Source of the DNA: Candidatus Sulfopaludibacter sp. SbA3
Lineage (GTDB): Bacteria > Acidobacteriota > Terriglobia > 20CM-2-55-15
Length of the DNA stretch: 55,455 bases
Assembly: GCA_945865815.1 (NCBI GenBank)
Contig: CAMBFR010000013.1
Coordinates: forward strand, 1 to 55,455
Direction of reading: 5' to 3'
This document shows, in pieces, positions 5,001 to 24,369 of this stretch (position 1 is the stretch's first letter; each line of letters starts with the position of its first letter). Made by a program: the position numbers and the translations under genes. Below the pieces are notes generated by a model. It was not told where the DNA came from. It made no database searches and saw only the letters and a list, made by a program, of their open reading frames with translations.

Positions 5001-5305
5001 AGGCTTGCCCGTTCGCCGCTTTTGACCAGAAGGCGCTGCCCGGCCGGCCTGAAGCCCGGCAGCGCCGCTCGGACCTCATACGCCCCGATTGGCAGCAGCG
5101 TGGCCAGAAAGTGTCCCCGGTCATTTGTGATGAGAGACCGCTGCGCGCCAGTCTCAAGGCTTGTAATTGCAATGTTTACGCCCGGTACGAACGCGCCGCT
5201 GCCGTCTGTAACGAACCCTTCGATATCACCGGTCAATGCGGCCCACACGCTCAATGAGCACGCAAGCAAAACCACGGCCGCATCCCAGATTCTCTGCTTT
5301 GACAT
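2060..5305 (-). CDS. TonB-dependent receptor with carboxypeptidase-regulatory-like N-terminal domain
   Basis: A 1081-residue outer-membrane protein of the Oar/SusC-related type abundant in Acidobacteriota. A signal peptide (about residues 1-25) is followed by a carboxypeptidase-regulatory-like beta-sandwich (GDIEGFVTDGSGAFVPGV..., about 26-115). A plug-like region comes next (NNITIDNIVSTDV and ITNNFNAEFGRNAS), then a long beta-barrel ending in a terminal Trp (LKLLW) suited to BAM insertion. The chosen ATG at 5305 has GGAG 8 nt upstream and starts directly on the signal peptide; an upstream in-frame start at 5374 lacks these. It is a tandem paralogue of the next gene, which lies upstream on the same strand. 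The substrate is unknown and no TonB box is evident. Confidence 0.85.
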   Translation of the reverse strand: MSKQRIWDAAVVLLACSLSVWAALTGDIEGFVTDGSGAFVPGVNIAITSLETGAQRSLITNDRGHFLATLLPIGAYEVRAALPGFRPAGQRLLVKSGERASLNLTLEVGNLTQEITVTDTAVQLINTADAQIQISIGEKRIKELPIRTQDPLVLATLSPGVVPIAPGNPFLNAGSFNSNGGRGRGNNITIDNIVSTDVTTTGQAGLDTLSIDAIQEFKLITNNFNAEFGRNASAQLQILTKSGSNDFHGTVYEFLMNDKLNAREWFDKTGKASIVRRNQFGATAGGPILRDRLFFFGHYEGLQKRGAGGTRVANVPSSSQLGAVTDPTSRAILAAGKLPAATEVDAAGTGRVEQSGSDSEKSTDWSARLDSTFNGGADTLTGRYSFQDREGSSPGNTFLLTNLAGWGATSTNRPQNLHLGWTHVFGASLVNEARAAFGRVNPFFTPETDSSLPRIQITGMSFFGLFEGMPQGRVQNTFQYSDTLAWVTGRHSLKFGGDFHRIQANSLLDGFTRGALTFASWDDFAAGRPLTFQQRFGSTARGHRVSNLFFFGQDDFRASPDFTLNVGFRVEIAGGVSEVNNLHSNLDPRTPGPIAAAPAGPLGSFVIGGNTYEPNFNYQPRIGFAWNPGRGNWVVRGGYGIAHDFIFLNPITNMRSLPPFIQRVDLTGTAAFSGANSYANVLAGTSPIQAQGQASAGKFSSTQTNFSSISPVDPHLKNPQVQQWNLTIDRQLTPDIAVRVGYVGTGGRYLLRSRQLNTISRQLVGPATSEADEVARLAQFQAAFAGATGAPTGSSNRLDPRFNSISIAESSASSSFHAFEAELNKRFSRGWQVQAAYTWSKSIDDVSDFGGVLVNDSYVSQNPFDLREGRGLSQFDVPHRLVVNHILEPQIFRGLTGAAGKLLHGWALNGIFQTQAGAPTNIFAGTRLGITDAALSGNTTTANVVRANVAGDLSKLVFAPAGSAEAALIPTPAARGVNSTAAQRNLNTSAYPLVQPLLGQYGSLGRNVLRLNGLTQFDWVVLKNTAVAEGVNLQFRADFFNVFNNTSFAGFQNILTSPAFGTYQATDTRPREIQLGLKLLW

Positions 5306-5395
5306 TACTGTTCTCCGTAGAGTTAAAAACATCCATTTCAAGTGTTCGGTTTTAGAGCGTGGAGCCAGGAGCACGCCGGGGGCCAGGAATGCGGA

Positions 5396-8300
5396 CTACC
5401 AGGTAAGCTTCAGGGCCAGGCATATTTCGCGCGGCCTTGTCAGCGTCGATTGATAGGTTCCGAAGGCCGGCGACGAGAGGGTGTTCTGGAAGCCGGCGAA
5501 ACTGGTGTTATTGAAGACGTTGAAGAGTTCGGCGCGGAACTGGGCATTGACGAATTCGTTTATCGGGGTGTTCTTCAAGAGGACCCAGTCAAACTGGATC
5601 AGGGAATTGAGGCGGACAGAATTGCGTCCCATGTTGCCGTAGTGGCCGATGAGCGGCTGCACCAGAGGATAGTTGCTCGTATTCGTGTTCCGGTCGGTCG
5701 CGTTGGCGTTGATACCGCGCGCCGCGGCAGACGGAATGAGCGCCGCACCGGCGCTGCCCGCAGGCGCGAAAACCAGTTTGCTCACGTCTCCGGCCACATC
5801 TGCAAGCACCATGTTTACGCCCGCGGAATTGCCCGATAACGCAGCGTCGCTGATGCCCAGGCGCGGTCCAGCCAGGATCGTTACAGGGAAGCCCGACTGG
5901 GATTGAAAAATGCCGTTGAGCGCCCAACCGTGAAGAATTTTGCCGGCGATGCCCTGAAGATTGCGGAAGACCTGCGGTTCGAAAATATGATTTACGACCA
6001 GCCGGTGTGGAATGTCGAACTGGGACGGACCCTTGCTGTTCGCCAGATCGAAGGGATTCTGCGCCACAAAACTGTCGTTGGGGAGCGCTCCGTTGAGAAC
6101 ATCGGATCCGTCGTCAATGGACTTGGACCAGGTGTATGAGGCTTGCAGCTGCCAGCCCCGTGAGAACCGCTTATTGAGCTCGACCTCAAGACCATGAAAC
6201 GAAGAACTGGATGAACTCTCCACGACACCCACGGAATTGAACCGCGGATCCAGGCGGTTGCTGCCCCGCGCCGGAGTTCCCGACGAGGCGGCGAAAATAT
6301 TCTGAAACTCCCCCAGCCTCGCAATTTCATCGGCCGCGCCGGCAGCAGGCCGTACCAGGCTTTGAGGGATCATGTTGATCTGCCGGTTGCGGAGCAGATA
6401 ACGTCCCGCGGTGCCGACGTAGCCCACGCGCACGGCCAGATCGCCGGAAATCCGGCGTTCGAGCGTAAGGCTCCATTGTTGTACCTGTGGGCTCTTGAGC
6501 GCCGTATCGATCGGACTGATCGAACTGAAGTTGACCTGCGAGCTGTTGAACCGGCCCACAGCGGCACGGCCCTGCGCCTGAATTGCGCCTGTCCCGCCCA
6601 GGACGTTCGCATAGGAGTCGGCGCCTGTGAAGGACGCGGCGCCCGTAATGTCGATCCTCTGGATAAACGGCGGCAAGGTTCGCGAGGCGCTCGTAATCGG
6701 GTTCAGAAAAACGAAATCGTTCGTAATGCCGTATCCTCCCCGCAGCACCCATTCGCCGCGCCCGGGATTCCAGGCGAATCCAAGCCGGGGCTGATAATTG
6801 ACGATGTTTCCGTAGATCGTGGATCCGAGTACGAATGTTCCCAGCGGGCCGGTCAGCGCGCCTCCAGCCGGGCCGGCCCTGTGAACATCGAGATTCGACT
6901 GGATGTCATTGACTTCGCCAACGTCACCGGCGGCTTCCACGCGCAAGCCCAGATTCAGCGTGAAATCCGGTAAGACCTTGAAGTCGTCCTGCGCGAAAAA
7001 GAAGGCGTTCGAAACCCGGTTTCCGCGCGCTGTCGATCCGAACCGCTGCTGATAGCTCAGCGGCCTTCCGGCCGCGAAATCGGCCCAGCTCGCAAATGTG
7101 AAAATGCCGCGCGTGAACGCATCCAGAACGCTGTTCGCCTGGATTCGATGGTATTCCGCGCCGAACTTCAGATTGTGGCGCGCGCGCGTCCAGGTGAGCG
7201 TGTCGCTGTACTGAAACATGTTCTGGACGCGTCCCTGAGGCAGTCCTTCCCAAAGCCCGAAGGACGCCATGCCCGTGATCTGAATGCGAGGCAACCGATT
7301 ATCCGTCTGCGGGCTGAAGGTGGATGTGGCCCGTCCATAGGCGATGCGCGCTTCGTTTGCCACCTGCGGGTTGACGACGTGGGTCCAGCCCATGTGAAAA
7401 TTTCGTGGATCGTTGGTAACCGTTGCGCCCCAGCCGGCAAGATTGCTCCCGAGAAACGTGTTATTCACATTTCCTTCTGTGGCGCCCTGAGCCGAGAACC
7501 TTCCATGTAAAGTATCGCGTCCGCCGTTGAAGTTGTGATCGAGCCGGATCGACCAGGCATTTGATTTCGTATAGGTGGCCGCGCTTTGCGAGACGCTTCC
7601 GGCGCCAGCGGAATCAGCCTGCGCCGCCGGCAGTTTCGCGGCTGTCAGGATCGCCAGCGATGTGGGATCTGTCACTCCGGCAAGCTGCGCAGCTGTAGGC
7701 ACACTTGCTATCCGCGTCCCACCCGCTCCGCGAACCTGCAGACCCTCGTAGTGACCAAAGAAAAACAGCCTGTCCGGCAGGATCGGCCCACCGGAGGCTA
7801 TCCCGAACTGATTCCGGCGGATGATGCTGGCCTTTCCGGTCTTATCAAACCAGTCCCGCGCATTCAGTTTGTCGTTTCCCAGGAATTCGTAAATGGCGCC
7901 ATGGAATTCGTTCGAGCCGCTTTTCGTGATGATTTGAAATTGGGAACTCGCGTTTCGTCCAAATTCAGCATTGAAATTGTTGGTAATGAGCTTGAGTTCC
8001 TGGATTCCGTCGACGCTGAGCGTATTGATGCCAGCCGTGCCTGCGCTGCTGACATCGGTCGAAACAATGTTGTCAATGGTGACGTTGTTTCCGCGTCCCC
8101 GGCCGCCGTTCGCGTTAAAGGCTCCCGTGCCCAGAAAGGAATTTCCGGCCATTGCCGGAACTACACCCGGCGCAAGCCCTGCCAGCGACACCGGGTTCCT
8201 TCCTGCGAGCGGCAGACCTGTGATTCGCTTTTGATCGATGGAGACCTGAATTTGCGCGTCCGTGGTGTTTACCAGTTGAACCAGGGTTTCGGTCACGGTG

Positions 8301-8644
8301 ACCTGCTCGGTTAGATTCCCGAGGGCGAGGGTGAGGTTCAGGCTTGCCCGCTCCGCGCTCTTAACCAGAATGCGTTGCACTGCGGGCCTGAAATTGAGCC
8401 GTTCGGCGCGAACCTCATACTCCCCGGGGGGCAGCAATGTTGCGAGGAAGTGTCCGCGGTCGTCTGTGACGAGAGTCCGTTCAGCGCCGGTCTCGACGTT
8501 TCTGACCGTTATGGCGACTCCGGGGACCAGCGCGCGGCTGGAATCCGTAACGAATCCTTCAATATCCCCGGAAACGGCTGCCCCGCCGGTCAGCGACCCA
8601 GCCAGCATGAGCGCAACCGCCCACCAGATCTGTTGTATGGACAT
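5396..8644 (-). CDS. TonB-dependent receptor, tandem paralogue of 2060-5305
   Basis: A 1082-residue receptor with the same architecture as its downstream neighbour: signal peptide, regulatory beta-sandwich (GDIEGFVTDSSRALVPGV), plug (NNVTIDNIVSTDV, ITNNFNAEFGRNAS) and barrel with C-terminal Trp (LKLTW). Blocks of near identity over the full length (NGGRGRGNN, RGHFLATLLP, FHGAIYEFL versus FHGTVYEFL) show tandem duplication. ATG at 8644 and TTG at 8647 are both possible; GGAGG lies just upstream of both. The two paralogues are about 90 bp apart and may be co-transcribed. The gene is divergent from the ECF sigma gene at 8914. Ligand unknown. Confidence 0.85.
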   Translation of the reverse strand: MSIQQIWWAVALMLAGSLTGGAAVSGDIEGFVTDSSRALVPGVAITVRNVETGAERTLVTDDRGHFLATLLPPGEYEVRAERLNFRPAVQRILVKSAERASLNLTLALGNLTEQVTVTETLVQLVNTTDAQIQVSIDQKRITGLPLAGRNPVSLAGLAPGVVPAMAGNSFLGTGAFNANGGRGRGNNVTIDNIVSTDVSSAGTAGINTLSVDGIQELKLITNNFNAEFGRNASSQFQIITKSGSNEFHGAIYEFLGNDKLNARDWFDKTGKASIIRRNQFGIASGGPILPDRLFFFGHYEGLQVRGAGGTRIASVPTAAQLAGVTDPTSLAILTAAKLPAAQADSAGAGSVSQSAATYTKSNAWSIRLDHNFNGGRDTLHGRFSAQGATEGNVNNTFLGSNLAGWGATVTNDPRNFHMGWTHVVNPQVANEARIAYGRATSTFSPQTDNRLPRIQITGMASFGLWEGLPQGRVQNMFQYSDTLTWTRARHNLKFGAEYHRIQANSVLDAFTRGIFTFASWADFAAGRPLSYQQRFGSTARGNRVSNAFFFAQDDFKVLPDFTLNLGLRVEAAGDVGEVNDIQSNLDVHRAGPAGGALTGPLGTFVLGSTIYGNIVNYQPRLGFAWNPGRGEWVLRGGYGITNDFVFLNPITSASRTLPPFIQRIDITGAASFTGADSYANVLGGTGAIQAQGRAAVGRFNSSQVNFSSISPIDTALKSPQVQQWSLTLERRISGDLAVRVGYVGTAGRYLLRNRQINMIPQSLVRPAAGAADEIARLGEFQNIFAASSGTPARGSNRLDPRFNSVGVVESSSSSSFHGLEVELNKRFSRGWQLQASYTWSKSIDDGSDVLNGALPNDSFVAQNPFDLANSKGPSQFDIPHRLVVNHIFEPQVFRNLQGIAGKILHGWALNGIFQSQSGFPVTILAGPRLGISDAALSGNSAGVNMVLADVAGDVSKLVFAPAGSAGAALIPSAAARGINANATDRNTNTSNYPLVQPLIGHYGNMGRNSVRLNSLIQFDWVLLKNTPINEFVNAQFRAELFNVFNNTSFAGFQNTLSSPAFGTYQSTLTRPREICLALKLTW

Positions 8645-8688
8645 CAAACCAATACCTCCATGGGACTGAGGGCCTGCGAAACCGGAGG

Positions 8689-10351: not shown

Positions 10352-13066
10352 ATGAGCGTTCGTAATAGCCTCTTGCTCCTGGTTGCCCTGTTGAGCGCGA
10401 CCTTGCTGTTCGGCCAGATAACGCCCCTGCGCGGCCGGGTCGCGGACTCGACCGGCGCAATCCTGCCGGGCGCCGATATCAAGGTCTATCAGGGCGCAGC
10501 AGTAGTTCGAGACGGCAAGACCCGGGCTGGCGGAGATTTCGAATTCCCATTGCCGCCGGGCGAGTACCGGCTGGAGATCACGGCGCCCGACTTTGAGCCG
10601 TACACGGAAGTCGTCCGGGTTACGCCGGAACTGGGTCCCCTTGCGATTACCATGCAGTTGGCGCCAGTCACGCAGAACGTCGAAGTTATAACTGACAGAC
10701 AGCAGCTCAGCGTCGAAGCGGACAGCAACCTGAACGCGACAGTCCTTGGCCAGGATTTCATCGAGCAATTGCCCGAAGATGAAGACGAATTGCTGGCTGT
10801 GCTGCAGCAACTGGCCGGTCCGAGCGCCGGGCCCGGCGGAGCGGATCTCATCATTGACGGCTTTTCGAACGGGCGCATTCCGCCGCGCTCTCAGATCATG
10901 GAAGTCCGCATCAACAACAACCCTTATTCAACCGAATTCAGCAGGTCGGGTTTTGGCCGCCTCGAAATCATTACCAGGGCGGGAACGGGCAATTTTCGCG
11001 GCAGCTTCGGGTTTCAGTTCAAGGACGAAACGCTGAATGCGCGAAACGCCTTTGCGGCGGAGAAGCCTTCATTTCAGCAGCGGAACTTCAATACGAATGT
11101 CAGCGGTCCGGTGATTCCCGGTAAGCTTTCGCTCTCGCTGGACGCGCGCTATAACGAGTCCGACAACTCCGGCACCATCCGGGCGATTACGCCTATTGCA
11201 TCAATTTCGCAGGGCGTGCTCCTGCCCAACACCAACCGCAATATCGGGACGCGAGGGCAGTATCAGCTGACGCAGAACAACATGCTGAACTTCAACGTCC
11301 GGTATGGCAGCAACAAACGGCTGAACCAGGGAGTGGGCGGTTTCAACTTGATGGAGCGCGCATCCAACAACACGAGCCGCGAGATCGAGTTCCAGGTGCG
11401 GGAGTCCGCGGTCATCGGCCAAAGACTGGTGAACGAGGTTCGCTTTTCCGTTGAACGGCAGCGTAGCTCCACAACTCCGAAGACCGAAGCAGTCGCCGTC
11501 AATGTTCTCGATGCGTTCCAGGGTGGCGGCAATCCGAACCGCAACACGAACAACGACACGACGTATGAGTTCGGCAATACCCTGATGTATAACAAGGGGA
11601 AATTGGCACTGAAAACCGGTTTTCAGGGTGTGCAACGCAGCCTGCACTCACTGTCGGAAAACAATTATCGCGGCAGTTTCGTTTTTTCCAGTCTCGCGGA
11701 TTACATCGCCAACCGGCCCATTACGTTCACTGTCACGCAGGGCAATCCGCTGCTGGATATGAAACAGTTTGAGTCGGGTCTGTTCCTCCAGACGGACTGG
11801 AGGATTTCCCCGCGCTTCACTTTTTCGGCCGGAATGAGATACGAGGCGCAGACGAATCTGGCCGACTACAACAACTTCGATCCCCGCGCCGGTTTTGCCT
11901 TCCAGTTGAACCAGGCGACCGTCATCCGGGGCGGCGGCGGCGTCTTCCACCAGCGTCTGAATACGCAGAACGTCCAGACCCTGATCCGGCTGGACGGGAC
12001 GCGGCAGCGCGAGATCGTCATCCGGAATCCTTCTTTCCCGGATCCATTCTCCTTCGGCGACGTCAGCGAGCGACCCGCTTCGTCGATCCGGATGCGCGCC
12101 GAAGATCTTGCGGCGCCTTACACGGTCAATTCGTCCATTTCGCTTGAGCGGCAGTTGCCCAAGGGAATTCGTCTGTCGTCAACCTACGAATTCGTGCGCG
12201 GCGTCCACCAGTTCCGCGGCCGCAACATCAATGCTCCCTTGCCCGGCTCGTTCGTTCGCCCGGATCCCATTCGGGGTAATGTCGTTCAACTGGAATCCAC
12301 CGGTCTATCCAACGAGCACAGCTTCCGCCTGCAAATGAACAAGCAGGTGAACCAGAAGATCACGGTGTTCGGCAATTACACGCTGCGCTTTAACCGCAGC
12401 GACAGCGACGGCGCATTTAACCAGCCCATGAACAACTACAATATGGCGCTCGACTGGGGCAGGTCGAATGACGATACAAGGCATAACGTCAATGCCAACG
12501 TCCTGATTTCCCTTCCGTGGAATCTGCGCCTCGGATCACGGATGTTTGCCGGCTCCGGACGGCCTTACAACATCACCACCGGAAAAGACGACAACGGCGA
12601 TACGGTTACAAACGATCGCCCGGCCGGTTTCGCGCGCAATGCGGGCAATGGCCCCGGCAGTTTTGATATGAGCTTCAACATCACCAAGACGATTCAACTC
12701 CGAGGCGGCAATGCGGGCAATGGAAATGCCGGCGCTGCCCGGCCCGCCACTAGCTTCGCCGAGCCTCAGCGGGGCGGCGGTGGCGGCGGATTCCCGGGCG
12801 GAGGATTCCCCGGCGGCGGGGGCCCTGGCGGGCGTCCCGGCGGCGGCCCTGGTGGCGGACCCGGCGGCGGTCCTGGTGGATTGCCCGGAGGGGGCTTTGG
12901 CCAGCCGAGCCGTCTTCAGATGCAGATCACTGCCGACGTCCGAAACGTCCTGAACCATACGAACTTCGGCAATTACAGCGGTGTCATGACGTCTCCGTTC
13001 TTTGGCCGGCCGACGTCTGCCAGGAACCCGCGTGAGATCCAGGTCGGGTTGCGGTTCAATTTCTAA
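10352..13066 (+). CDS. TonB-dependent receptor-like outer-membrane protein with Gly/Pro-rich insertion
   Basis: A 904-residue protein. A signal peptide (1-22) is followed by a carboxypeptidase-regulatory-like domain (LRGRVADSTGAILPGADIKV, about 26-110) and a plug-like domain containing a run of acidic residues (LPEDEDELLAVLQQL). The barrel ends in Phe (VGLRFNF). Near the C-terminus, residues about 807-850 are a Gly/Pro repeat (GGGFPGGG, GGGPGGGP) that would form a disordered surface loop between the last barrel strands. It is the fourth gene of the sigma-led operon, 24 bp after the Spy-like gene and 12 bp before the last gene. It is shorter than the three other receptors of the window and diverged from them. 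Confidence 0.8.
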   Translation: MSVRNSLLLLVALLSATLLFGQITPLRGRVADSTGAILPGADIKVYQGAAVVRDGKTRAGGDFEFPLPPGEYRLEITAPDFEPYTEVVRVTPELGPLAITMQLAPVTQNVEVITDRQQLSVEADSNLNATVLGQDFIEQLPEDEDELLAVLQQLAGPSAGPGGADLIIDGFSNGRIPPRSQIMEVRINNNPYSTEFSRSGFGRLEIITRAGTGNFRGSFGFQFKDETLNARNAFAAEKPSFQQRNFNTNVSGPVIPGKLSLSLDARYNESDNSGTIRAITPIASISQGVLLPNTNRNIGTRGQYQLTQNNMLNFNVRYGSNKRLNQGVGGFNLMERASNNTSREIEFQVRESAVIGQRLVNEVRFSVERQRSSTTPKTEAVAVNVLDAFQGGGNPNRNTNNDTTYEFGNTLMYNKGKLALKTGFQGVQRSLHSLSENNYRGSFVFSSLADYIANRPITFTVTQGNPLLDMKQFESGLFLQTDWRISPRFTFSAGMRYEAQTNLADYNNFDPRAGFAFQLNQATVIRGGGGVFHQRLNTQNVQTLIRLDGTRQREIVIRNPSFPDPFSFGDVSERPASSIRMRAEDLAAPYTVNSSISLERQLPKGIRLSSTYEFVRGVHQFRGRNINAPLPGSFVRPDPIRGNVVQLESTGLSNEHSFRLQMNKQVNQKITVFGNYTLRFNRSDSDGAFNQPMNNYNMALDWGRSNDDTRHNVNANVLISLPWNLRLGSRMFAGSGRPYNITTGKDDNGDTVTNDRPAGFARNAGNGPGSFDMSFNITKTIQLRGGNAGNGNAGAARPATSFAEPQRGGGGGGFPGGGFPGGGGPGGRPGGGPGGGPGGGPGGLPGGGFGQPSRLQMQITADVRNVLNHTNFGNYSGVMTSPFFGRPTSARNPREIQVGLRFNF

Positions 13067-13990: not shown

Positions 13991-16900
13991 CTAGAAAACC
14001 ACTCTTATTCCGATCTGTGCCCGGCGGGCGTTCGTCCCGTCCGGGAAGCCCTGCGACTGATTGCCATTACCCAGACCGGCGGATGGTGTGAGCACGCCCC
14101 CGTTGGCTGAGAACGCCTCCGTAAAGACGTTCGTATTGGAAACGTGATTGAAGATATTGAACCCCTCGAAGTTCACGTAGGCCTTCACTGTTTCGCCGAA
14201 CGGAAGCATCTTGCTCAGGCGCGCGTCCGTCCGGAAGACGGTGTCGATATCCAGGTTGGAGAACGGCTGAAACGGGACTCGGTTGCTGCCGCCCAGGCCG
14301 TTCAGCGAACCCGTGAACGCGGCACCGGCAAACGGAGCGCCGACAATTCGTATCGTCGCGGTTGCGGGTTGGGGCGATGCAGCCGTCGTAATTTGAGTCA
14401 GCTGCCAGTTGTTGACGAGAAAACGCGCCACCGCTGAATCGCTTTGCGTGAAGGTTGGCTGCAGAATCGTGGTCACCACCAGCCTGTGGCGCTGATCCAG
14501 TGATGACGACCCTTTATCCATGTCCCAGCGCCCGCTGAAGGTCGACCGGATAAAGTCGTAAAAGAGCGCATTGCTGCCGCCGCCCTGGTTGGCTGTATCG
14601 ATTGCGTGAGACCAGGTGTATGACACCGAAGCCTCGACACCCTTCGACATGCGCTTTTTCAACTGAACAGCGAGCGCGTCGTAGTAGCTTCGACCGGAAT
14701 TCTCCACCTGATTGACTCGGCGAAAGCGCGTATCGACTCGATTTGCGAGCCGGTAGGTTGGCGTGGAATAACTGCCCGCCTGGTTGCCGCTTGAATCATT
14801 GATCCGGTAAGTAACGGCGGCGCCTTCCGCGCCGATATTGAGATCACGCGTCAGAAGCAACTGGACGCCCCGGCTCCAGATGTAATTCAGCGTCAGGGTC
14901 ATGTCGCTTGTTAACTGACGCTCAATGGCAAGATCCGCCTGCTGCGTGTAAGGCGTCCGAAGATTCGGCGCGGCATACGTGATGTCGACGCTTCCTGTCG
15001 GCAGGTTCGTGGCCGTCAGCGGAAGTCTTCCTGGCAAAACGGGGCCGGCCGCCAGGTCCGGCGCGACCGTTCCGTTCAGCGAGACCGCCGGCTGATAGAC
15101 TCCGTTTGCCAGAAGCAGTGTCTGAATGAATGATCCGGGATATCGCGCATAGAAGATTCCATAGCCGCCTCGCAGGACCGTCTTATCGTCCATGGAATAG
15201 GCAAATCCAAATCGCGGCGCGATATTCTTGCCGTATTCATTGATTTTTCCCGTTTGGGCGTAATTCGGATTCACAGTAGTCGGCGTCGGCAGATTGGAGT
15301 AGTCGTACCGTAGCCCGTAATTGAGGGTCAACTGGTTCGTCGCCCGCCACTGATCCTGGCCGAAGAACGCAAAGTCCGTGGTCCGGAAGTCCAAAACGGG
15401 ATTACCAATGGTCTGGGTGAAAGTAGTCCAGCGTTTCGCTCCGGTCGTGTTACCTGAGAGGTCCTGGGCGAAGGCAGTCCAGGTCGAGTAGGTATATGAA
15501 CCTGCGCGGTTGCGAAGACTGTCGAGATAGTCCTGTGTAGTCGCGAGATCCACGCCAACCTTGATCGTGTGCTTGCCGCGGGTCCAGTTGAGATTGTCGG
15601 TGAATTGAAACCGCTGCTCGCTGGGATTGAGGCGAGGGTAGTCGATGGCGGTGCCCAGATTCGACTGACCTGCCACCGTGAGGCCGATCGTGCCGGTCTC
15701 AGCAGGGATCAACGCTGGATTGACCGAATCGAATAGACGATCCTTGAACCAGCCGAAACGAAGCTCGTTGACCATGCTACTGGATGGGACGCTGGTCCAC
15801 GAGACGCGGCCATAGCGGGTACGAACAGTCGAATTTGCGTTATTGCCGATGCCATTCCCGTTTGTGAGCACAGCCTGTGTCTGGATGCCGTTCGGTGAAA
15901 TCCAGCGGAGGCCGTTGAAACTTGTGCTGATCGTGTTCCGGGCGTTGGCTACAAAATCCAGTTTCCCAAAGCCAAGCTCCGAATTGGCCGTGCGTTCCAG
16001 AGTCTGGAATTGACGATTGAGAAAATTGCGGGCCGCAGTGCACTGCGCTGCAGTTGCCGTGCAGGTCTGGAGGAAATTGCCGGCGGCATCGAAGAACTGC
16101 GGATTGATGAGGCGATTGATCAGCGGGAACTTCCGCCGGGTGAATTCGGTATTCAGGAAATAGAACACCTTATCCTGTTTGATGGCTCCGCCAACGCTGC
16201 CACCGAACTGATGACGGGTTTCGTCGGGATTGATTGTGGCGTACCGATCGCGCGCATTGAATGCCTGGTTTCGGAAGAACCAGTAAACCGTGCCGTGAAC
16301 GTCATTACCTCCGCTTCGCGTTACCGTGTTGACTACGCCGCCTGATGCTCGTCCGAACTCCGCGGCGTAACCGTTCGTCAACACCTGAAACTCCTGAACG
16401 GCGTCCGCCGAGATCTGCGAAGAGATGCGCGTTCGGCCCGCATTTTCGTTGTAGAACTGGTTCGTCGTGTCGTTTCCGTCCGTCAGGTAGGAGTTGCCGC
16501 CGGCGATGCCGCGGAAACTCACCAAACCGAAGCTTCCATCCGGTACCACCGCCGGCGTCAACAAGACAAAGGAGTCGACCCGTCGGCCGTTGATCGGCAA
16601 TTCCTGAATCTGCGCCGCGGTGACGACCTGCGAGACTTCGGTCTTCGTGGCATCCACAACAGGCGCCGTCTCCACGATCACAACCGTGGTCTCCGTGCCA
16701 GCGACAGCAAGTTCAACGGTCAGGCTGATCTCTTGTCCGACCTGAAGCTCGATATTCTGTACATTGTAGTCCCGGAATCCGGCCAGCCGGACAGTGACTG
16801 TATATCCGGACGTCGGTACAAGGGCGGACGCCGAAAAGACTCCTGATTCGTTCGAAACCAGCGTGCGCACGACGCTTCTGGATTCGTTAGAGATGCTCAC

Positions 16901-17035
16901 TGCAGCGCCTGGAACACGAGCGCCGGTCGTATCCTGTACAACGCCCGAAATCGTTCCGAATCCCGCTAATTGCGAAAAAAGGTTAGCCGAGTGAAACAGA
17001 CATAAAACGGTCAAGCACCCGATGATTCGTTTCAT
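13991..17035 (-). CDS. TonB-dependent receptor with carboxypeptidase-regulatory-like domain
   Basis: A 1014-residue outer-membrane protein. A signal peptide (MKRIIGCLTVLCLFHSANLF) is followed by a regulatory beta-sandwich (GTISGVVQDTTGARVPGAAV), a plug (NGYAAEFGRASGG and VVNTVTRSGGNDVHG) and a barrel ending IGIRVVF. The ATG at 17035 has GGAGG 5 nt upstream and starts the signal peptide; the longer frame from 17107 is unlikely. It lies downstream of, and on the same strand as, the sigma/anti-sigma pair at 17213-18624, about 180 bp away, and may be their target. It is only distantly related to the tandem receptors at 2060-8644. Substrate unknown. Confidence 0.85.
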   Translation of the reverse strand: MKRIIGCLTVLCLFHSANLFSQLAGFGTISGVVQDTTGARVPGAAVSISNESRSVVRTLVSNESGVFSASALVPTSGYTVTVRLAGFRDYNVQNIELQVGQEISLTVELAVAGTETTVVIVETAPVVDATKTEVSQVVTAAQIQELPINGRRVDSFVLLTPAVVPDGSFGLVSFRGIAGGNSYLTDGNDTTNQFYNENAGRTRISSQISADAVQEFQVLTNGYAAEFGRASGGVVNTVTRSGGNDVHGTVYWFFRNQAFNARDRYATINPDETRHQFGGSVGGAIKQDKVFYFLNTEFTRRKFPLINRLINPQFFDAAGNFLQTCTATAAQCTAARNFLNRQFQTLERTANSELGFGKLDFVANARNTISTSFNGLRWISPNGIQTQAVLTNGNGIGNNANSTVRTRYGRVSWTSVPSSSMVNELRFGWFKDRLFDSVNPALIPAETGTIGLTVAGQSNLGTAIDYPRLNPSEQRFQFTDNLNWTRGKHTIKVGVDLATTQDYLDSLRNRAGSYTYSTWTAFAQDLSGNTTGAKRWTTFTQTIGNPVLDFRTTDFAFFGQDQWRATNQLTLNYGLRYDYSNLPTPTTVNPNYAQTGKINEYGKNIAPRFGFAYSMDDKTVLRGGYGIFYARYPGSFIQTLLLANGVYQPAVSLNGTVAPDLAAGPVLPGRLPLTATNLPTGSVDITYAAPNLRTPYTQQADLAIERQLTSDMTLTLNYIWSRGVQLLLTRDLNIGAEGAAVTYRINDSSGNQAGSYSTPTYRLANRVDTRFRRVNQVENSGRSYYDALAVQLKKRMSKGVEASVSYTWSHAIDTANQGGGSNALFYDFIRSTFSGRWDMDKGSSSLDQRHRLVVTTILQPTFTQSDSAVARFLVNNWQLTQITTAASPQPATATIRIVGAPFAGAAFTGSLNGLGGSNRVPFQPFSNLDIDTVFRTDARLSKMLPFGETVKAYVNFEGFNIFNHVSNTNVFTEAFSANGGVLTPSAGLGNGNQSQGFPDGTNARRAQIGIRVVF

Positions 17036-17212
17036 GGAACCTCCACATAAAGGCATCCCACAAGATGCCGTTAAACCCCAGAGTTCTTCCCCAAGACAGG
17101 AAGTCATTTTACCCCGACGCTACTTGAGGCCTCAAAAGAAAGCCATTAAAAGTTTGTGAATAAAAATGAGTGGCGGCAAATGCAAGGCTGAGTTCGCGAG
17201 ACGACCCAGGGC

Positions 17213-18079
17213 CTATTGGATCGCCAAGGGTTGAAGGGCGTCGCGCAGAACTTTCATTAAATTGTCAGGCGGCGTCAACAGAGAGCCGCGGAGGCGAACG
17301 GCGCCGGTCTGGTCGAGCAGCACAAACTCACCAGGGACAGCGTTCAACAAACGGGAACCCTGGTTGTAGAAAAGCGGGAACGTGGTGTTGGCGGGGTTGG
17401 CCTCCCGTTGGTTGGAGATGCCGACAATGCGCAACCTGGTGTTGCTGCCGAAAGTCTTGTAGACACGTTCGATGTTGGCGATCGCTTCAGGTTGGGTGGG
17501 CTGCCACACGCCGAAGAAAAGAACGTAGCCTTTATAGTCCTCGAGCGTTCGGGAATATCCGGCTGGATCCGTGATCACGAACTCCGGAGCGCCTGAGGCG
17601 TCCGGCCCGGCAGCCGCGGCAGCGGCGGCTGCGGCAGGACCGCCGCTCGCGGCGCCGGCCGCCGGTCCAGCCTCTTCCGGCTTCGCGCGCAGCGTGGCTG
17701 TGGATTCGGAGTCTTTGTCCAGTCCAGGATTCTCAGCTGGAGCAGGCGCTGTTACGGACTGATCCGGCGCCGGCGGGAGACTGGCCGGGCCGGGTTGTAA
17801 TTGAAGTGAGACTGCCATGACGAGTGCGATGGCTACTGCCGCTGCGGCCCCCACATATCCCCAGGCAACCCTGGGCCGTCCGGGTGAATGTGCAACCGCC
17901 ATCTGGTGGCGCACATACTTTTTGATCACGACATCGATTGCTTCCAGGCTCTCTATTTCGCTTCGGCAGTGCGCGCAGTCCTGGATGTGATCCCTGACAA
18001 GGCGGGCTTCTTCCGCGCCCAGGCTGTCACAGGAGATGGCTTCAAGATTTGTGGAAACCCATTGGCAATCGATTCTCAT
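17213..18079 (-). CDS. Zinc-finger anti-sigma factor fused to a cysteine-less thioredoxin-like domain
   Basis: A 288-residue protein. Residues 1-60 form a ZAS-type anti-sigma domain with H31-x3-C35-x2-C38, preceded by C5 and C17. A TM helix at about 71-92 is followed by a Pro/Ala-rich linker with an Ala run (149-157). Residues about 165-285 have the TlpA/AhpC thioredoxin layout: EFVITDPAGYSRTLEDYKGY, then FFGVWQPTQPEA where WCxxC is expected, a later FPLFYNQ, and VPGEFVLLDQTG like the cis-Pro strand. Both redox cysteines are replaced (Q193-P-T-Q196), so it should not do disulfide chemistry. It starts with an ATGA overlap to the sigma gene. It probably holds the sigma factor at the membrane and uses the redoxin fold as a periplasmic sensor, which is inferred. 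Confidence 0.85.
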   Translation of the reverse strand: MRIDCQWVSTNLEAISCDSLGAEEARLVRDHIQDCAHCRSEIESLEAIDVVIKKYVRHQMAVAHSPGRPRVAWGYVGAAAAVAIALVMAVSLQLQPGPASLPPAPDQSVTAPAPAENPGLDKDSESTATLRAKPEEAGPAAGAASGGPAAAAAAAAAGPDASGAPEFVITDPAGYSRTLEDYKGYVLFFGVWQPTQPEAIANIERVYKTFGSNTRLRIVGISNQREANPANTTFPLFYNQGSRLLNAVPGEFVLLDQTGAVRLRGSLLTPPDNLMKVLRDALQPLAIQ

Positions 18080-18624
18080 CGTCTTCTCTTCCCTAATGTT
18101 TCCTTCAGTCGTTTGCGGGCGTAAAAAATTCTCGATTTCACCGTTCCCTGGGGGATCTCGAGGATCTCCGCGATTTCGGGAATCGTCAATCCATCCAGCG
18201 CCAACATCAATAGCGGCAGACGGAAGTCGTCCGGCAACCGGTTGACTTGTTTCCGGACGTCCATGAAAGCTTCACGATCAAAGTCCTTTGAGCGATCCTG
18301 CGGATCAAAGCCCTGCACCGAGCCGTCTTCATAGCTGGTTTCAAGGTCCGTAAAGAAAATCCAGCGTTTAAGGCGTCGCACGGCGCTCTTGTGGTGATTG
18401 ATCGCCACACGAACAACAATCCGGGACAGCCAGATTCTCAGCGGACAATCGCCGCGGAAACGGCTGATTCCACGGAACCCCCTGATCAGGGCCTCCTGGA
18501 CAATATCTTCCGCATCCGTAGGATTGCGCGCCGATGCAATCGCAATCTGCATCAGGAAGGACCGGTGCTCGCCAGCAGCCGTCTCGAAGTCCATTTCGTC
18601 TGCTCGAACAGCCACGGTTTTCAT
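18076..18624 (-). CDS. ECF-type RNA polymerase sigma factor
   Basis: A 182-residue ECF sigma factor. Region 2 contains NPTDAEDIVQEALIRGFRGI and FRGDCPLRIWLSRIVVRVAI. Region 4, at about 125-180, has LTIPEIAEILEIPQGTVKSR and the end IFYARKRLKE. It is coupled by a 4-bp overlap to the zinc-finger anti-sigma/redoxin gene, the classical arrangement. The 89-bp region upstream contains a GAAC-type element (tgaaccttcccc) followed about 16 nt later by gctgtcc, which could be a self-recognised ECF promoter; this is a weak guess. A TPR protein gene precedes it on the same strand. Confidence 0.92.
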   Translation of the reverse strand: MKTVAVRADEMDFETAAGEHRSFLMQIAIASARNPTDAEDIVQEALIRGFRGISRFRGDCPLRIWLSRIVVRVAINHHKSAVRRLKRWIFFTDLETSYEDGSVQGFDPQDRSKDFDREAFMDVRKQVNRLPDDFRLPLLMLALDGLTIPEIAEILEIPQGTVKSRIFYARKRLKETLGKRRR

Positions 18625-18713
18625 CCGGCCGTATTTAAAGGACAGCGTTGGTTAGGGGAAGGTTCACAGAGATTTAGCGAATTTCAGGATCCGGGAAAGA
18701 GTTCTGAAACTCC

Positions 18714-20714
18714 TTACCTGTTGGCAATCCTGGTCTTAAGTCCATCGAGCTTCTTCTTTATTCGACCGACTTCCTCGGAGTCATCGCCGATAGCCAGAGA
18801 CTTGTTCCATTCTGTCCGGGCTTGCTCATACCGCATGGTCTTGAAGTACAGGTCGCCCATGTGGTCGTGAATCGTCGCGTTGTCATTGGCGAATATCAGG
18901 GCTCGCGTCAGGTATTCCTCGGCGCGATCGAGCTGATTCATTCGAAAGTAGGCCCAGCCGAGGCTGTCCAGATAGGCCCCGTTTGTCGGTTCCGTTTCTA
19001 CGGCCTTATGAAGCATTGCGACGGCTTCCTGCAGTTTCAGGCCGCGGTCCGCCAGTATGTACCCCAGATAATTGAGAACGGCGGGGCTGTCCTTTTCAAT
19101 TTCCAATGCCTTGCGGAAGGCCCTCTCGGCCTCGTTGAACTTCTTCTGTTGTTCGTAAAGCGATCCCTGCAACAGGTAAACATTCTCGTTTTCCGGGAAG
19201 CGCCGGACTGCGGTGTTCACGACATCCTGGGCCTGATCCCATTTCCGGGCCCGCGAGTAGATGTTGGCCATGGTTGAAAACACGGCAAGGTCGCCTTCGT
19301 TTCCGCGAGTCAACCTCTGCAGGTTCCGGATGCCTTCGTCGACGCGTCCCTTTTCCGCGATCAGGTCGGCATGGGTCAGTAGAAGGTCACGGCTGTCGGG
19401 AGCCGCCTTCAGCGCCTGTTCGCTGTACTCCAGCGCCTTGTCGATTTGTTTTGCGCTGCGATAAGCCTCCGCGATCAGTGCATCGATGCGGTCGGTGTCC
19501 GACGATATGGTCTTCAATTCAGTAAAAGCCTGGATTGCGGCGCCATGGTTGCCGACCGTCGTATTGAGCAGCGCAAGGTTCGTCAGGAAGATTCGCCGGT
19601 TTTGCTTTTCGCCTTCGCTGTAACGTCCGTTCGCTCGTTCCCCGAGCTTTAAAATGTCGGTTACGCGGGCAATGGCTTCTGGAAGACGTCCTTCGTCGCG
19701 CTCCAGAAGGACGAAGTTGAATTGAACTTCCGCGCTGTCGGCAAACATCGTGACGGCTTTTTCGAGATTTTGCCTCGCAAGCGCGTACTTCATTTGGCGA
19801 CGGTAGATCTGGCCCAGCCTCAACAGGGCAATGCCATCCTCAGGCTCGGCGCGCTGCAATGCCTGATACAAGTCCGCCGCCTCGTTCAGCTGGTCGGAAA
19901 AGAAGAGGGATTGCGCATAGTTTTTTTTCAGTTCGAGATCGTCGGGGTTGAGCTCAACTGCTTTCTTGTATGCCGCCGCCGCCTCTTCAAACCGTTGGAG
20001 GCCGGAGTACGCCTGGCCCAATGTGGCATACGCGGCGTCCGAATCCGGACGTTCCCTGAGAAAAGTTTCGAGCAGGCCGGCAGCCTCCCTTTCGTTACCC
20101 GCGTCCAACTGCAGTTTTGCCAGCGCGATGATGCCCTGTTCGGAACCCGGCTCAATGCCCAGATACTTCTTGTAGATCTCGGCAGCCTTCTCCGGTTCGT
20201 TCCGGATCTGGTAAAGCTGGCCCAGCATCATGTAGGACTGGGTATCGGCGGGGTCAATACGAATGATTTCTTCAAATTCGCGAACCGCCCGGTTGAGAGT
20301 GTCCTGCGGCAGCGGCTGTTGGTTGTTCGCGTTGCCCAACATTGCCGTATAGATCGTGCTGAGTGTCTTATGCGCCTCGATGTTGTTGCGGTCCGCCTGA
20401 ATGGCCTTGTCCGCGGCGTCAACCGCTTCGCGGACGCGGCGGTTACGGTAGTACGTGTCTGCCATCTCCGAATAAATCAGAGAATTATTGGGATCAAGCG
20501 CCAGCGCTCTCTGGTATTCCGCGATCGCCTCGTTCCACTGCCCCTGCTCATCCAGGACTCTTGCTTTTGTGAAATGGAAGTACGCTTCGGCCCGGTTGGC
20601 CGCCGATGCCTGGGCACGAGCCGGTTGTCCGAACCCGTTGGTCGCAAATGCCAGAATAAAGATGACAGAGACGACAGAAAGGAGGCCCCGAATCGTCCTG
20701 AGTGTTCTACGCAT
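18714..20714 (-). CDS. Exported or membrane-anchored TPR-repeat protein
   Basis: A 666-residue protein. A hydrophobic signal or anchor segment (about 8-30, LLSVVSVIFILAFATNGFG) is followed by an almost continuous array of tetratricopeptide repeats from about residue 40 to 650. Examples are WNEAIAEYQRALALDPNN, FEEAAAAYKKAVELNPDD and FNEAERAFRKALEIEKDS. Such arrays mediate protein-protein contacts, and the location is probably periplasmic or envelope. ATG at 20714 is preferred because the signal segment follows and GAGG lies upstream; an in-frame ATG at 20753 has no ribosome site. It ends 89 bp before the ECF sigma gene on the same strand and may be part of that unit. Specific partner unknown. 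Confidence 0.85.
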   Translation of the reverse strand: MRRTLRTIRGLLSVVSVIFILAFATNGFGQPARAQASAANRAEAYFHFTKARVLDEQGQWNEAIAEYQRALALDPNNSLIYSEMADTYYRNRRVREAVDAADKAIQADRNNIEAHKTLSTIYTAMLGNANNQQPLPQDTLNRAVREFEEIIRIDPADTQSYMMLGQLYQIRNEPEKAAEIYKKYLGIEPGSEQGIIALAKLQLDAGNEREAAGLLETFLRERPDSDAAYATLGQAYSGLQRFEEAAAAYKKAVELNPDDLELKKNYAQSLFFSDQLNEAADLYQALQRAEPEDGIALLRLGQIYRRQMKYALARQNLEKAVTMFADSAEVQFNFVLLERDEGRLPEAIARVTDILKLGERANGRYSEGEKQNRRIFLTNLALLNTTVGNHGAAIQAFTELKTISSDTDRIDALIAEAYRSAKQIDKALEYSEQALKAAPDSRDLLLTHADLIAEKGRVDEGIRNLQRLTRGNEGDLAVFSTMANIYSRARKWDQAQDVVNTAVRRFPENENVYLLQGSLYEQQKKFNEAERAFRKALEIEKDSPAVLNYLGYILADRGLKLQEAVAMLHKAVETEPTNGAYLDSLGWAYFRMNQLDRAEEYLTRALIFANDNATIHDHMGDLYFKTMRYEQARTEWNKSLAIGDDSEEVGRIKKKLDGLKTRIANR

Positions 20715-20775
20715 AGACGCTAAATTCCTCGGAAGTCGAAACTTTGCCGCCATTATACAGGCGGGTAACCGCCTT

Positions 20776-22341
20776 TTAATGCTTAAAATGCCGTATTCCC
20801 GTAAAAATCATGGCGATGCCGTGCTCGTCTGCGGCCTCGATAACTTCAGCATCCCGCACCGACCCGCCGGGTTGAATGATGGCGGTAATACCGGCCTTTG
20901 CCGCCTCATCTATGCCATCGCGAAAAGGAAAGAAAGCATCCGAGGCCAGCACGGAACCCCTGGCTGCGGGCCGCGATTTTTCAATGCTCAGCCTCACGGA
21001 ATCGACGCGGCTCATCTGGCCTGCCCCGACGCCAACGGTTCTGCCGCCTTCGGCAAGCACGATGGCATTGGATTTCACGTGCTTCGCCACCCGCCACGCG
21101 AAATCCAGGTCGTGCTGTTCCTTTCCGGTTGGCTGGCGTTTGGTAACGACGCGCGAGTCCGGCCCGGCCAGAATTCCATCCTGGTCCTGCAGCAAAACGC
21201 CGCCGGCCACCCGCTTCAGTTCGAACCCGGAGATTGGACCCTGGAAATTCGTAGACGTTAAACCGTTTTCCAGGGACAGCAATCGCAGGTTCTTTTTCGA
21301 AGATAAAGCCGAGATCGCCCCTGCCTCATACCCGGGAGCGATAATGGCCTCCACAAAGAGCTTCGCGGCCTCGCCGGCAGTTGCGGCATCGACAGGTCTG
21401 TTGAACGCAATAATCGATCCGAATGCCGAGACGGGATCCGCTTCGTACGCCTTCTGATATGCCTCGCCCAGGGATCCACCCACCGCCGTACCGCACGGGT
21501 TGGTGTGCTTGATGATGCAGCAGGCGGGCTCCTCAAATTCCCTGATGAGATTCCACGCCGCTTCGAGATCCACGATGTTGTTGTAGGAAAGCTCCTTGCC
21601 CTGCAACTGGCTCGCCGCCGCCAGGCCGTGCGCAGGCTCGCCTCCCCACCTGTAAAAAGATGCGCGCTGATGAGGATTTTCTCCATAGCGGAGGTCGGCA
21701 ACTTTTTCAAAATCCGTGAAAATGTTAGCCGGAAAGACGGCTTGTTCAGCGCCAACCTGGGAAAGATATTGCGCGATGTAACCATCGTAGCGTGCCGTGC
21801 AGATGAACGCCTTGCGGGCCAGGTCAAACAGTATCTCGCGGGTCAGGATTCCATTTCCCGCGCGCAGGCCTTCCAGCACGCGGATGTACTGTTCCGGAGA
21901 CGTCACGACCGCCACGTCCTGGAAATTTTTCGCCGAAGCGCGAATCAGCGAAGGGCCTCCAATGTCGATGTTTTCGATAACCTCTTCGAATTCGACGCCG
22001 CTTTTTCGTGTGGTCTCCAGAAATGGATAGAGATTCACGCAGACAACGTCGATCATCGGGATCGCGTGTTCTGCGACCTGCCGCATGTGCTCAGCGTTCT
22101 GGCGGATTGCGAGCACGCCACCGGCTATGCGCGGATTGATCGTCTTCACGCGGCCGTCGAGAATTTCCGGAAAGCCTGTCAGATCCGAGACTTCACGCAC
22201 ACGAATGCCATTGGAAGCCAGCAGTTTGGAAGTGCCGCCCGTCGAGATGATCTCGGCGCCCAACCCGGCAAGCCCGCGGGCAAATTCGACCACACCGGTC
22301 TTGTCGTACACGCTGATGAGAGCGCGCTCGATTCGTTTCAC
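20776..22341 (-). CDS. purH: Bifunctional AICAR formyltransferase/IMP cyclohydrolase
   Basis: Catalyses the last two steps of de novo purine synthesis: formylation of AICAR by 10-formyl-THF, then ring closure to IMP. The 521-residue length is normal. The N-terminal IMP cyclohydrolase domain (MGS-like fold) shows [18 protein letters not shown] and [11 protein letters not shown]. The C-terminal transformylase carries the catalytic KHTNPCG motif (about residue 265) and a C-terminal end typical of the family ([20 protein letters not shown]). The start codon is GTG, at the position expected for the family. A run of ten Gs (in the coding sense) lies 9 bp upstream in the ribosome-binding position. 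It follows the secreted hypothetical gene by 24 bp, so they are likely co-transcribed. Confidence 0.97.
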
Positions 22342-22365: not shown

Positions 22366-22953
22366 TCACTTGAGTTCGCCATTGGCCCGTTGCCAGATGT
22401 GCAGCCACACATTTGCGACATCCGTAACGGCATGAGAAAAAGCGATCGAGGCGATGCCAAACACAGGTGAGTTCTCAATCACATTCGAGCGGTCGGGCAG
22501 CTCTACGGAGCGGCGCAGACGCCGCAGCAGGCGCTCTTGCTCGTCAAGCCGGATTTTTAGGAATGCTTCGAGATTTCCCTGACGTATCGACTCATGAAAT
22601 CCGTAAAAGACCACGGTAAATGTGCCGGCCTGGGCCGCGACCAGGGAATCCAGTTGCGGGTCATTCAAAGCCGCGACCGCACAACCCGCGTCGCGCATCG
22701 CCGCCACCGATGCGGAGAGATTTCCTGTTCTCTTCGAAATCTCGGTGACGGCTATCTTCGATGCTTCTTCGACCGTCAGTTTCCGGCACGGCTGGGAGAG
22801 CAAACCGTCGAAATCGGCCAGGAGCGTGTTCAGGTTTTTCGGCAGCGTCTGGCGCGCATCGCGGAACATCTTTACGTAAGCCGAAGGCGGCCACGCGCCG
22901 ATTTGCGCCGGAGCAACAAGGAGAAGGGCAATGACGGCAATCGCTAATCGCAT
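22366..22953 (-). CDS. Secreted hypothetical protein
   Basis: A 195-residue protein with an N-terminal signal peptide ([20 protein letters not shown]). A mature part rich in helices follows, containing two to three Cys ([13 protein letters not shown] and [13 protein letters not shown]) and a conserved-looking end ([20 protein letters not shown]). No domain is recognised with confidence. ATG at 22953 starts the signal peptide; a longer frame from 23022 would overlap selA on the other strand. The gene is divergent from selA with only 51 bp between starts and lies 24 bp before purH. It is probably periplasmic; function unknown. Confidence 0.65.
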
Positions 22954-23004
22954 GAGCGGCAATTGTAAATCAAGTTTTGGTGTGCTGAAATAGCGCGCAC
23001 AAAC

Positions 23005-24369
23005 ATGGAAGCACTTCGACAAATACCGCCGGTCAACGACGTGCTTCGTTCCAGCCGCCTTGCTGAATTCGGCGACCTCCTCAACCAGCCCTTCGTTTCG
23101 GATCTTCTCGACCGCATTTTCGCCGATACGCGCCGGGAGCTTGCACAGGCGAAAGCCGTAGTTTCGCGGGCGGAGTTAACAGAGAAAATTGCCGTCCATC
23201 TCGCTGAACGAATCCGCGAATCGCTGAAGCCGTCCCTGCGCAGGGTGATCAATGCCTCCGGCGTCGTTCTTCATACAAACCTCGGACGCGCGCCCCTGCC
23301 GGATGAAGCAATCGACCACCTGCGCGAGGTCTCGACCGGATATTCGAACCTGGAGTTCGACATCGAATCCGGCGAGCGCGGCAAGCGCGACACTCACATC
23401 GACAAATTGTTGCGGCAGCTCGTCTCCTGCGAAGCTGCGATTGTCGTCAACAACAACGCGGCGGCAGTGCTGCTGGTCCTGAATGCGCTGGGAGAGGGTG
23501 GCGAGGTCATCGCCTCGCGGGGCGAACAAGTCGAGATCGGCGGATCATTCCGGATACCTGAAGTGATGGCCAAGAGCGGCGCGCGGCTGCGGGAAGTCGG
23601 AACAACCAACCGGACCCGCATCGAGGATTATGAAAAGGCGATTAACGAAACTACCCGCCTGCTGCTTCGGGTTCATCCGAGCAATTTCCGGATGATCGGC
23701 TTTACCGAGCGGCCGTCGCTGGAAGAATTCGTCGAGCTTGGCAAGCGAAAGAACATACCGACCTTCGAGGATCTGGGCAGCGGCTGCATGGTGCCCCTGG
23801 AGTCCTCGGGCATACAGGACGAGCCGGTTGTGGCCGACAGCATCCGTGCCGGCGTGGATATCATCTGCTTCAGCGGCGACAAGCTTCTCGGAGGACCACA
23901 GGCCGGTATCATCGCCGGAAAGAAACTGTTCGTCGAAAAGATCCGGCAAAACCCGCTGTTTCGCGCCCTGCGCGTGGATAAACTGACGCTGTCTGTCCTG
24001 GAAGTGATCCTGCGAGCTTATCTCCAGGGAAAACCGCAGACCGTTCCGATTTGGCGGATGCTTCAGGCATCGGAGTCCGAGTTGAAAGCTCGCGCCGAAG
24101 CATTTGCGAAGCGGGCCGGGAAAGTTGCCAAGCCGGTACAGATGGCATCGCTTATCGGGGGAGGCTCCGCGCCGGAAGCGCCCCTGGCATCGTGGGGCGT
24201 CGCTATTGAAGCCAGTGGAATTTCGGAGTCGGAACTGGAGCGGCGCTTTCGCGCCGCCACCCCTCCCGTGATTGTCAGGGTCGAAGATGGCCGCGTCATG
24301 TTCGATATGCGGACCATATTCCCCGGCGAAGAAGATGTGCTGCTGAAAATACTCTCGAGCGTTACTTAG
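23005..24369 (+). CDS. selA: L-seryl-tRNA(Sec) selenium transferase
   Basis: A PLP-dependent enzyme converting Ser-tRNA(Sec) to selenocysteinyl-tRNA(Sec) with selenophosphate. It has 454 residues, the usual bacterial SelA length. The N-terminal domain begins with the typical [10 protein letters not shown], followed by [17 protein letters not shown], the Asn-rich [11 protein letters not shown] and the PLP lysine K293 in [13 protein letters not shown]. Bacterial SelA normally forms a decameric ring. No selB, selC or selD is in the window. Its 3' end overlaps the convergent efp gene by 8 bp. The organism is therefore expected to make selenoproteins, with the rest of the machinery elsewhere. Confidence 0.95.

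Follow-up and report, generated by a model that had tools for sequence, protein, structure and literature searches.

A cysteine-free thioredoxin-like domain in a predicted membrane-bound anti-sigma factor of one acidobacterial family

What can an anti-sigma factor sense with a thioredoxin fold that has lost its redox cysteines? The question is raised by a gene at positions 17213–18079 (minus strand) of a 55,455-nucleotide stretch of DNA, hereafter the window, from the soil-type acidobacterium Candidatus Sulfopaludibacter sp. SbA3 (contig CAMBFR010000013.1). The gene encodes a protein of 288 residues in which a zinc anti-sigma (ZAS) domain, a transmembrane (TM) helix and a putatively periplasmic linker are followed by a cysteine-free, TlpA-like domain, and it adjoins the gene of an extracytoplasmic function (ECF) sigma factor. 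What an ECF system senses is thought to be set by extra domains of its anti-sigma factor, and most of these sensor domains are uncharacterised. Here we follow up an original prediction that was made from the letters of this stretch alone. The reading that we favour, with a probability of about 0.6, is that the pseudo-redoxin domain provides a membrane-bound class I anti-sigma factor with a non-catalytic sensor of a ligand or partner.

A predicted membrane-anchored zinc anti-sigma factor

Homologues were collected from 11 genomes of the acidobacterial family to which the window belongs; ten are full length, the window's own included, and one is cut by a contig end. Those family records that carry names are mostly metagenome-assembled acidobacteria, several of them labelled gp5. 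The N-terminal residues 1–62 (17894–18079, minus strand) match profiles of the class I ZAS domain. The H31-x3-C35-x2-C38 motif described in the original prediction is present, but a fourth ligand, C5, had been missed: the site is a full CHCC site, C5-x25-H31-x3-C35-x2-C38, and all four residues are invariant in 11/11 homologues. Pfam zf-HC2 is detected in 8/10 homologues, and the ZAS profile matches the solved chains 3hug_B (E 3e-4) and the antisigma factor DdvA (E 9e-4), and also ChrR and RsiW. An AlphaFold2 model of the full-length protein places the helices of this domain at residues 5–16, 22–34 and 36–63.

A TM helix had also been anticipated, and hydropathy indicates one at residues 76–94 (17798–17854, minus strand), the sole strong hydrophobic helix in 10/10 homologues (19-residue Kyte–Doolittle mean 2.24; model helix 77–93). 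Basic residues precede it on the N-terminal side, so that by the positive-inside rule the C-terminus would lie outside; we infer that the C-terminal domain is in the periplasm, at the end of a linker rich in Pro and Ala (residues 95–163). As judged from these features, the product is a membrane-anchored class I zinc anti-sigma factor that would bind the neighbouring sigma factor. A survey that covers 10,930 class I anti-sigma domains gives ~65% of the full-length proteins as membrane-bound, reports that ~48% of the membrane-bound factors retain Hx3Cx2C, and ascribes sensing to extra C-terminal domains (PMC7406223).

The complete zinc site raises an alternative. RsrA detects oxidation through its CHCC site (PMC4960319), and the spacing of its ligands, Cys11-His37-Cys41-Cys44, is exactly that found here, C-x25-H-x3-C-x2-C. 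The protein might thus be a cytoplasmic redox sensor in which an RsrA-like trigger disulfide frees the sigma factor and the pseudo-redoxin domain serves only for structure or localisation. The zinc site of membrane-bound ZAS proteins could, however, be structural, as in RsiW, according to the survey authors (PMC7406223), and two features described below, the purifying selection that acts on the periplasmic domain and an invariant linker motif, RAKP, call for an extracytoplasmic function. We consider cytoplasmic redox sensing doubtful.

A TlpA-type fold without cysteines

The C-terminal domain, residues 164–288 (17216–17590, minus strand), had been described as TlpA/AhpC-like. Pfam AhpC-TSA falls below threshold in the window protein (E 0.009), yet it is seen in 10/10 homologues. 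AlphaFold2, run on residues 160–288 with eight homologues, gave a mean predicted local distance difference test (pLDDT) score of 91.1 and a predicted template modelling (pTM) score of 0.86. The best Foldseek matches of this model are DsbE-like, ResA and other TlpA-type chains (E ~1e-7), and VIA-align superposes it on 3gl3 with Z 12.8 and a root-mean-square deviation of 2.3 Å across 119 residues, and on ResA with Z 12.4. On this model we confidently assign the domain to the TlpA/ResA type of the thioredoxin fold. The structure prediction that had been suggested as a check has therefore returned the expected fold and not a different one.

No cysteine occurs in the redoxin domain of any of the ten full-length homologues, whereas TlpA-type proteins outside the fusion, taken from the same genomes, the class and the phylum, retain WCxxC. 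In a tree of the 10 fusion domains and 16 WCxxC TlpA rows, the fusion domains form one clade apart with 100/100 support; long branches meet at the split between the two groups, and the exact sister group is uncertain. This separation fits a single ancestral loss of CxxC. Judged from the alignment and the tree, the cysteine loss is ancestral, having occurred once, before the family diversified. The reported loss of the redox cysteines thus extends to the whole set of homologues, and none of the homologues of the fusion keeps CxxC, so that a local loss or error is not indicated. A whole-genome search (E ≤ 1e-10) found no homologue of the fusion protein in 388 other genomes of the class. Among the matches listed for a 396-genome sample of the phylum, which may lack rare cases, no further fusion of this kind was found, and a ZAS domain and a WCxxC TlpA protein never occurred together in the fetched loci; at one locus, L021, a single short overlapping frame happens to match both patterns by chance.

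The window comes from a 193-contig assembly, and one might suppose that a pseudogene or an assembly error had removed the cysteines in this genome alone. All ten full-length homologues, the window's own included, nevertheless lack cysteine in this domain, their frames are open and their ratios of nonsynonymous to synonymous substitution rates (dN/dS) are below 1. Local loss, decay or assembly error is ruled out by the homologues and by dN/dS, and we give it a negligible chance.

What remains of the active site is a poorly conserved stretch, W192-Q-P-T-Q196 (17492–17506, minus strand), in a loop between strand and helix that is ~3 residues shorter than in the TlpA rows. Counted from G184, W192 corresponds to the first W of FWATWCxxC; counted back from the helix, Q196 corresponds to the second Cys of WCxxC. 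The original prediction had read W-Q-P-T-Q at the WCxxC site, with Q193 and Q196 in place of the cysteines. The stretch is there, but neither glutamine is conserved, and the equivalence of Q193 is ambiguous, as it hinges on the placement of the gap. Across the ten homologues, columns 193–196 read QQSSNNDSDD, PPKSSVSSGG, TTDDRRKANN and QQQQQQDSAA, and these positions rank 103 of the 104 four-residue windows of the domain for conservation.

These columns bear on whether the former active-site loop has turned into a ligand pocket. The loop sits where thioredoxin folds bind substrate, and W192 is kept in 6/10 homologues. Its four following positions all vary in the family, however, and it has been shortened by ~3 residues, so that a repurposed active-site pocket is disfavoured. 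With the loop among the least conserved parts of the domain, WQPTQ as a new functional site finds no support, and we regard this version as very improbable.

Conserved surface and selection

Conservation lies elsewhere in the domain. Across the ten homologues, F167, D171, A173, G174, D181, G184, V191, Y207, R217, F234, P235, N239, S242, L244, G250, G259, R264, G265 and L267 are invariant. Some of these are likely to be structural, because the TlpA rows share D-G and FP elements; A173, R217, N239, S242, R264 and G265 look family-specific when the alignment is judged by eye. The redoxin domain has no His, Met or Cys that at least 8 of the 10 homologues share, which argues against thiol chemistry and against metal or heme binding through Cys, His or Met.

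Substitution rates were compared in three pairs of genes. When the window gene is set against that of its congener, dN/dS comes to 0.15 in the ZAS domain, 0.49 in the linker and 0.18 in the redoxin domain; the corresponding values are 0.13, 0.22 and 0.10 for L005 and L006, and 0.17, 0.37 and 0.48 for L009 and L010, a pair from the group labelled g2. The linker thus exceeds the redoxin domain in 2/3 pairs. Values of 0.10–0.48 indicate purifying selection on the redoxin domain and not the decay of a leftover. Taken with the invariant residues and the variable loop, they show that it retains a function, away from the former active site.

An invariant motif in the linker

The linker aligns poorly except for its most conserved stretch, R-[A/S]-K-P at residues 131–134 (17678–17689, minus strand), in which R, K and P are invariant in 10/10 homologues (entropy 0.12 versus 1.90 for the whole linker). 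In seven of the ten homologues, 23–24 residues separate the motif from the first strand of the redoxin domain that follows it, and in the other three 30–32 residues do so; its distance downstream of the TM helix is 19–41 residues. It is not present in 22 other ZAS loci that were checked, which rules it out as a general ZAS feature, and its codons differ between homologues, which rules out a DNA or RNA signal. From this pattern we infer a role in docking or in protease recognition.

Either role would place the motif in the release step. In a special case of the sensor reading, RAKP and the redoxin domain would together act as a latch and keep a cleavage site covered: a signal would open the latch, a site-1 protease would cut, and an intramembrane protease would then free the fragment bound to the sigma factor. 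Release by regulated intramembrane proteolysis of this kind is established for membrane anti-sigma factors (PMC4183432), and the conservation of RAKP despite differing codons, at a near-fixed distance from the first strand versus a variable distance from the TM helix, is in its favour. Two observations speak against it: the full-length AlphaFold2 model gives RAKP no contact, residues 94–161 being disordered (pLDDT <50), and no protease is tied to the locus. We treat regulated proteolysis as a tentative proposal that is somewhat unlikely as it stands. A further variant, in which the pseudo-thioredoxin domain and the tethered RAKP peptide make up a periplasmic latch and a ligand or protein of the envelope dislodges the peptide and so frees the sigma factor, seems to us rather doubtful. 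If it were true, the thioredoxin fold, once catalytic, would now control transcription through gating by a peptide or ligand.

The partner sigma factor and its promoter

The sigma factor gene (18076–18624, minus strand; 182 residues) carries Sigma70_r2 and Sigma70_r4_2 domains, and its stop codon overlaps the anti-sigma start codon in an ATGA. Both genes are present in 11/11 family genomes and are adjacent wherever they lie on one contig, which bears out the pairing named in the original prediction. At the cut-offs applied, no homologue of the sigma factor turned up in genomes beyond the family.

Upstream of the sigma gene lies a predicted ECF-type promoter, GAACC-N16-TGTCCT (18639–18665, minus strand). 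AAC/GTC is one type of ECF promoter, and GAAC-N17-TGTC fits it. GAAC[C/T]-N16-TGTC recurs at the same place in 8/9 loci, the ninth upstream region carrying an N and lacking GAAC; the chance expectation is 0.00085 per shuffled upstream region. A conserved ECF-type promoter ahead of the sigma gene suggests autoregulation, that is, that the sigma factor transcribes its own operon. The stricter consensus GAACY-N16-TGTCHT has 13 matches in the genome, 12 of them within open reading frames (ORFs), and the sole intergenic match is the sigma promoter; two relatives have only three matches outside ORFs, two of which are again the sigma promoter. This strict scan of three genomes named no further targets of the sigma factor, and its consensus may be too narrow.

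Several details of this region are recorded here in their own right. Just 16 nt separate the predicted −10 element from the first ATG of the sigma gene (window positions 18600–18665, minus strand), so that translation may in truth begin at M11, or else the transcript may be nearly leaderless. In the congener locus L026 (~4421–4546), an insertion of ~80 nt separates the sigma promoter from the conserved sigma start. In L030 (~6326–6397), a near-perfect inverted repeat with arms of ~29 nt, resembling a mobile repeat, lies between the promoter and the gene for a tetratricopeptide-repeat (TPR) protein.

Genomic neighbourhood

This TPR gene (18714–20753, minus strand) is the upstream neighbour of the sigma gene and is in kept synteny with it and with purH (20779–22341). 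The order purH, TPR gene, sigma gene, anti-sigma gene is kept wherever flanking sequence is available; for the g2 TPR gene only the C-terminal end was read, from the upstream sequence. Between purH and the gene for SelA (selenocysteine synthase) is a gene for a 218-residue protein (22369–23022, minus strand), which is conserved in relatives at 61–91% identity and whose product has no Pfam or NCBIfam match. The SelA gene itself (23005–24366, plus strand) runs in the opposite direction to the adjacent purH–TPR–sigma cluster and is kept in this place in several genera.

Downstream of the anti-sigma gene, a gene at 13991–17107 (minus strand) encodes a TonB-dependent-receptor-like outer-membrane protein of the OMP_b-brl_4 type. 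The 4.3 Mb genome holds ~65 such barrels, four of them in the window (2063–8647, 10352–13063, 13991–17107). A gene of this type flanks the anti-sigma gene in the loci labelled g1 and g3 and in most of those labelled g4. This arrangement would suit FecR-like cell-surface signalling, in which the receptor contacts the periplasmic domain and signals that substrate has been bound. The neighbour was not found adjoining the anti-sigma gene in g2 or in L029, however, and its orientation flips among genera; with ~65 barrels in this genome, accidental neighbours come easily; and Pfam shows no FecR domain in the anti-sigma factor and no STN domain in the receptor. We judge this explanation improbable.

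Discussion

Under the ligand- or partner-sensing reading that we favour, the cytoplasmic ZAS domain, held by its CHCC zinc site, would keep the sigma factor off RNA polymerase in the resting state. The single TM helix and the flexible Pro/Ala-rich linker would present the degenerate TlpA-type fold in the periplasm, where a ligand or an envelope protein would bind the conserved surface of the domain, the RAKP motif, or both; the candidate surface comprises D171, A173–Y175, R217, N239, S242, G250–F252 and R264–L267. Binding would free the sigma factor, through either a conformational change or proteolysis of the anti-sigma factor, and the freed sigma factor would transcribe its own operon from the GAAC-N17-TGTC promoter. 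Weighing against this model are the RsrA-spaced zinc site, which is also compatible with redox sensing in the cytoplasm, a fold prediction that was built on only 9 sequences, and the weaker constraint on the redoxin domain in the g2 pair (dN/dS 0.48).

The family clearly exemplifies a redox enzyme fold that, its chemistry gone, is kept under selection within a signalling protein, and its conserved surface, which is defined, its linker motif and the output promoter predicted here are all open to testing. It also carries a caution, in that the fold alone is no basis for annotating such proteins as redox sensors. An anti-sigma/thioredoxin fusion was not found in the open-access literature searched.

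Compared with known systems, the domain shares its overall fold (Z 11–13) and its anchoring outside the membrane with ResA, TlpA and DsbE (1su9, 3gl3, 4nmu). Unlike them, it lacks CxxC, its active-site loop is shortened and ~7–8 residues are gone from the helix that links strand 3 to the FP strand; its putative cis-proline position, P249, lies where the alignment is ambiguous and is not invariant, being P in 7/10 homologues and S or A in three. In sequence, the redoxin profile comes closest to an uncharacterised protein, PDB 2lrt (E 1.2e-4), whose aligned stretch is also without CxxC at the site, although the solved construct carries no anti-sigma domain. The b and b′ domains of protein disulfide isomerase likewise have a thioredoxin fold without catalytic function, but they are eukaryotic and unconnected with transcription control (mentioned in PMC12830090). 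Among anti-sigma factors, RsrA has the same zinc-ligand spacing, but is a cytoplasmic protein of 105 residues with no second domain. Closer in layout are RslA of M. tuberculosis, which we take to be 3hug, and RsiW of B. subtilis, presumably 5wuq: both have an N-terminal zinc domain, one TM helix, an extracytoplasmic C-terminal region and a gene that adjoins that of an ECF sigma factor. The present system differs from them in its extracytoplasmic part, a cysteine-free thioredoxin fold together with the RAKP linker motif. As a whole it follows the established pattern in which anti-sigma factors carry interchangeable sensor domains.
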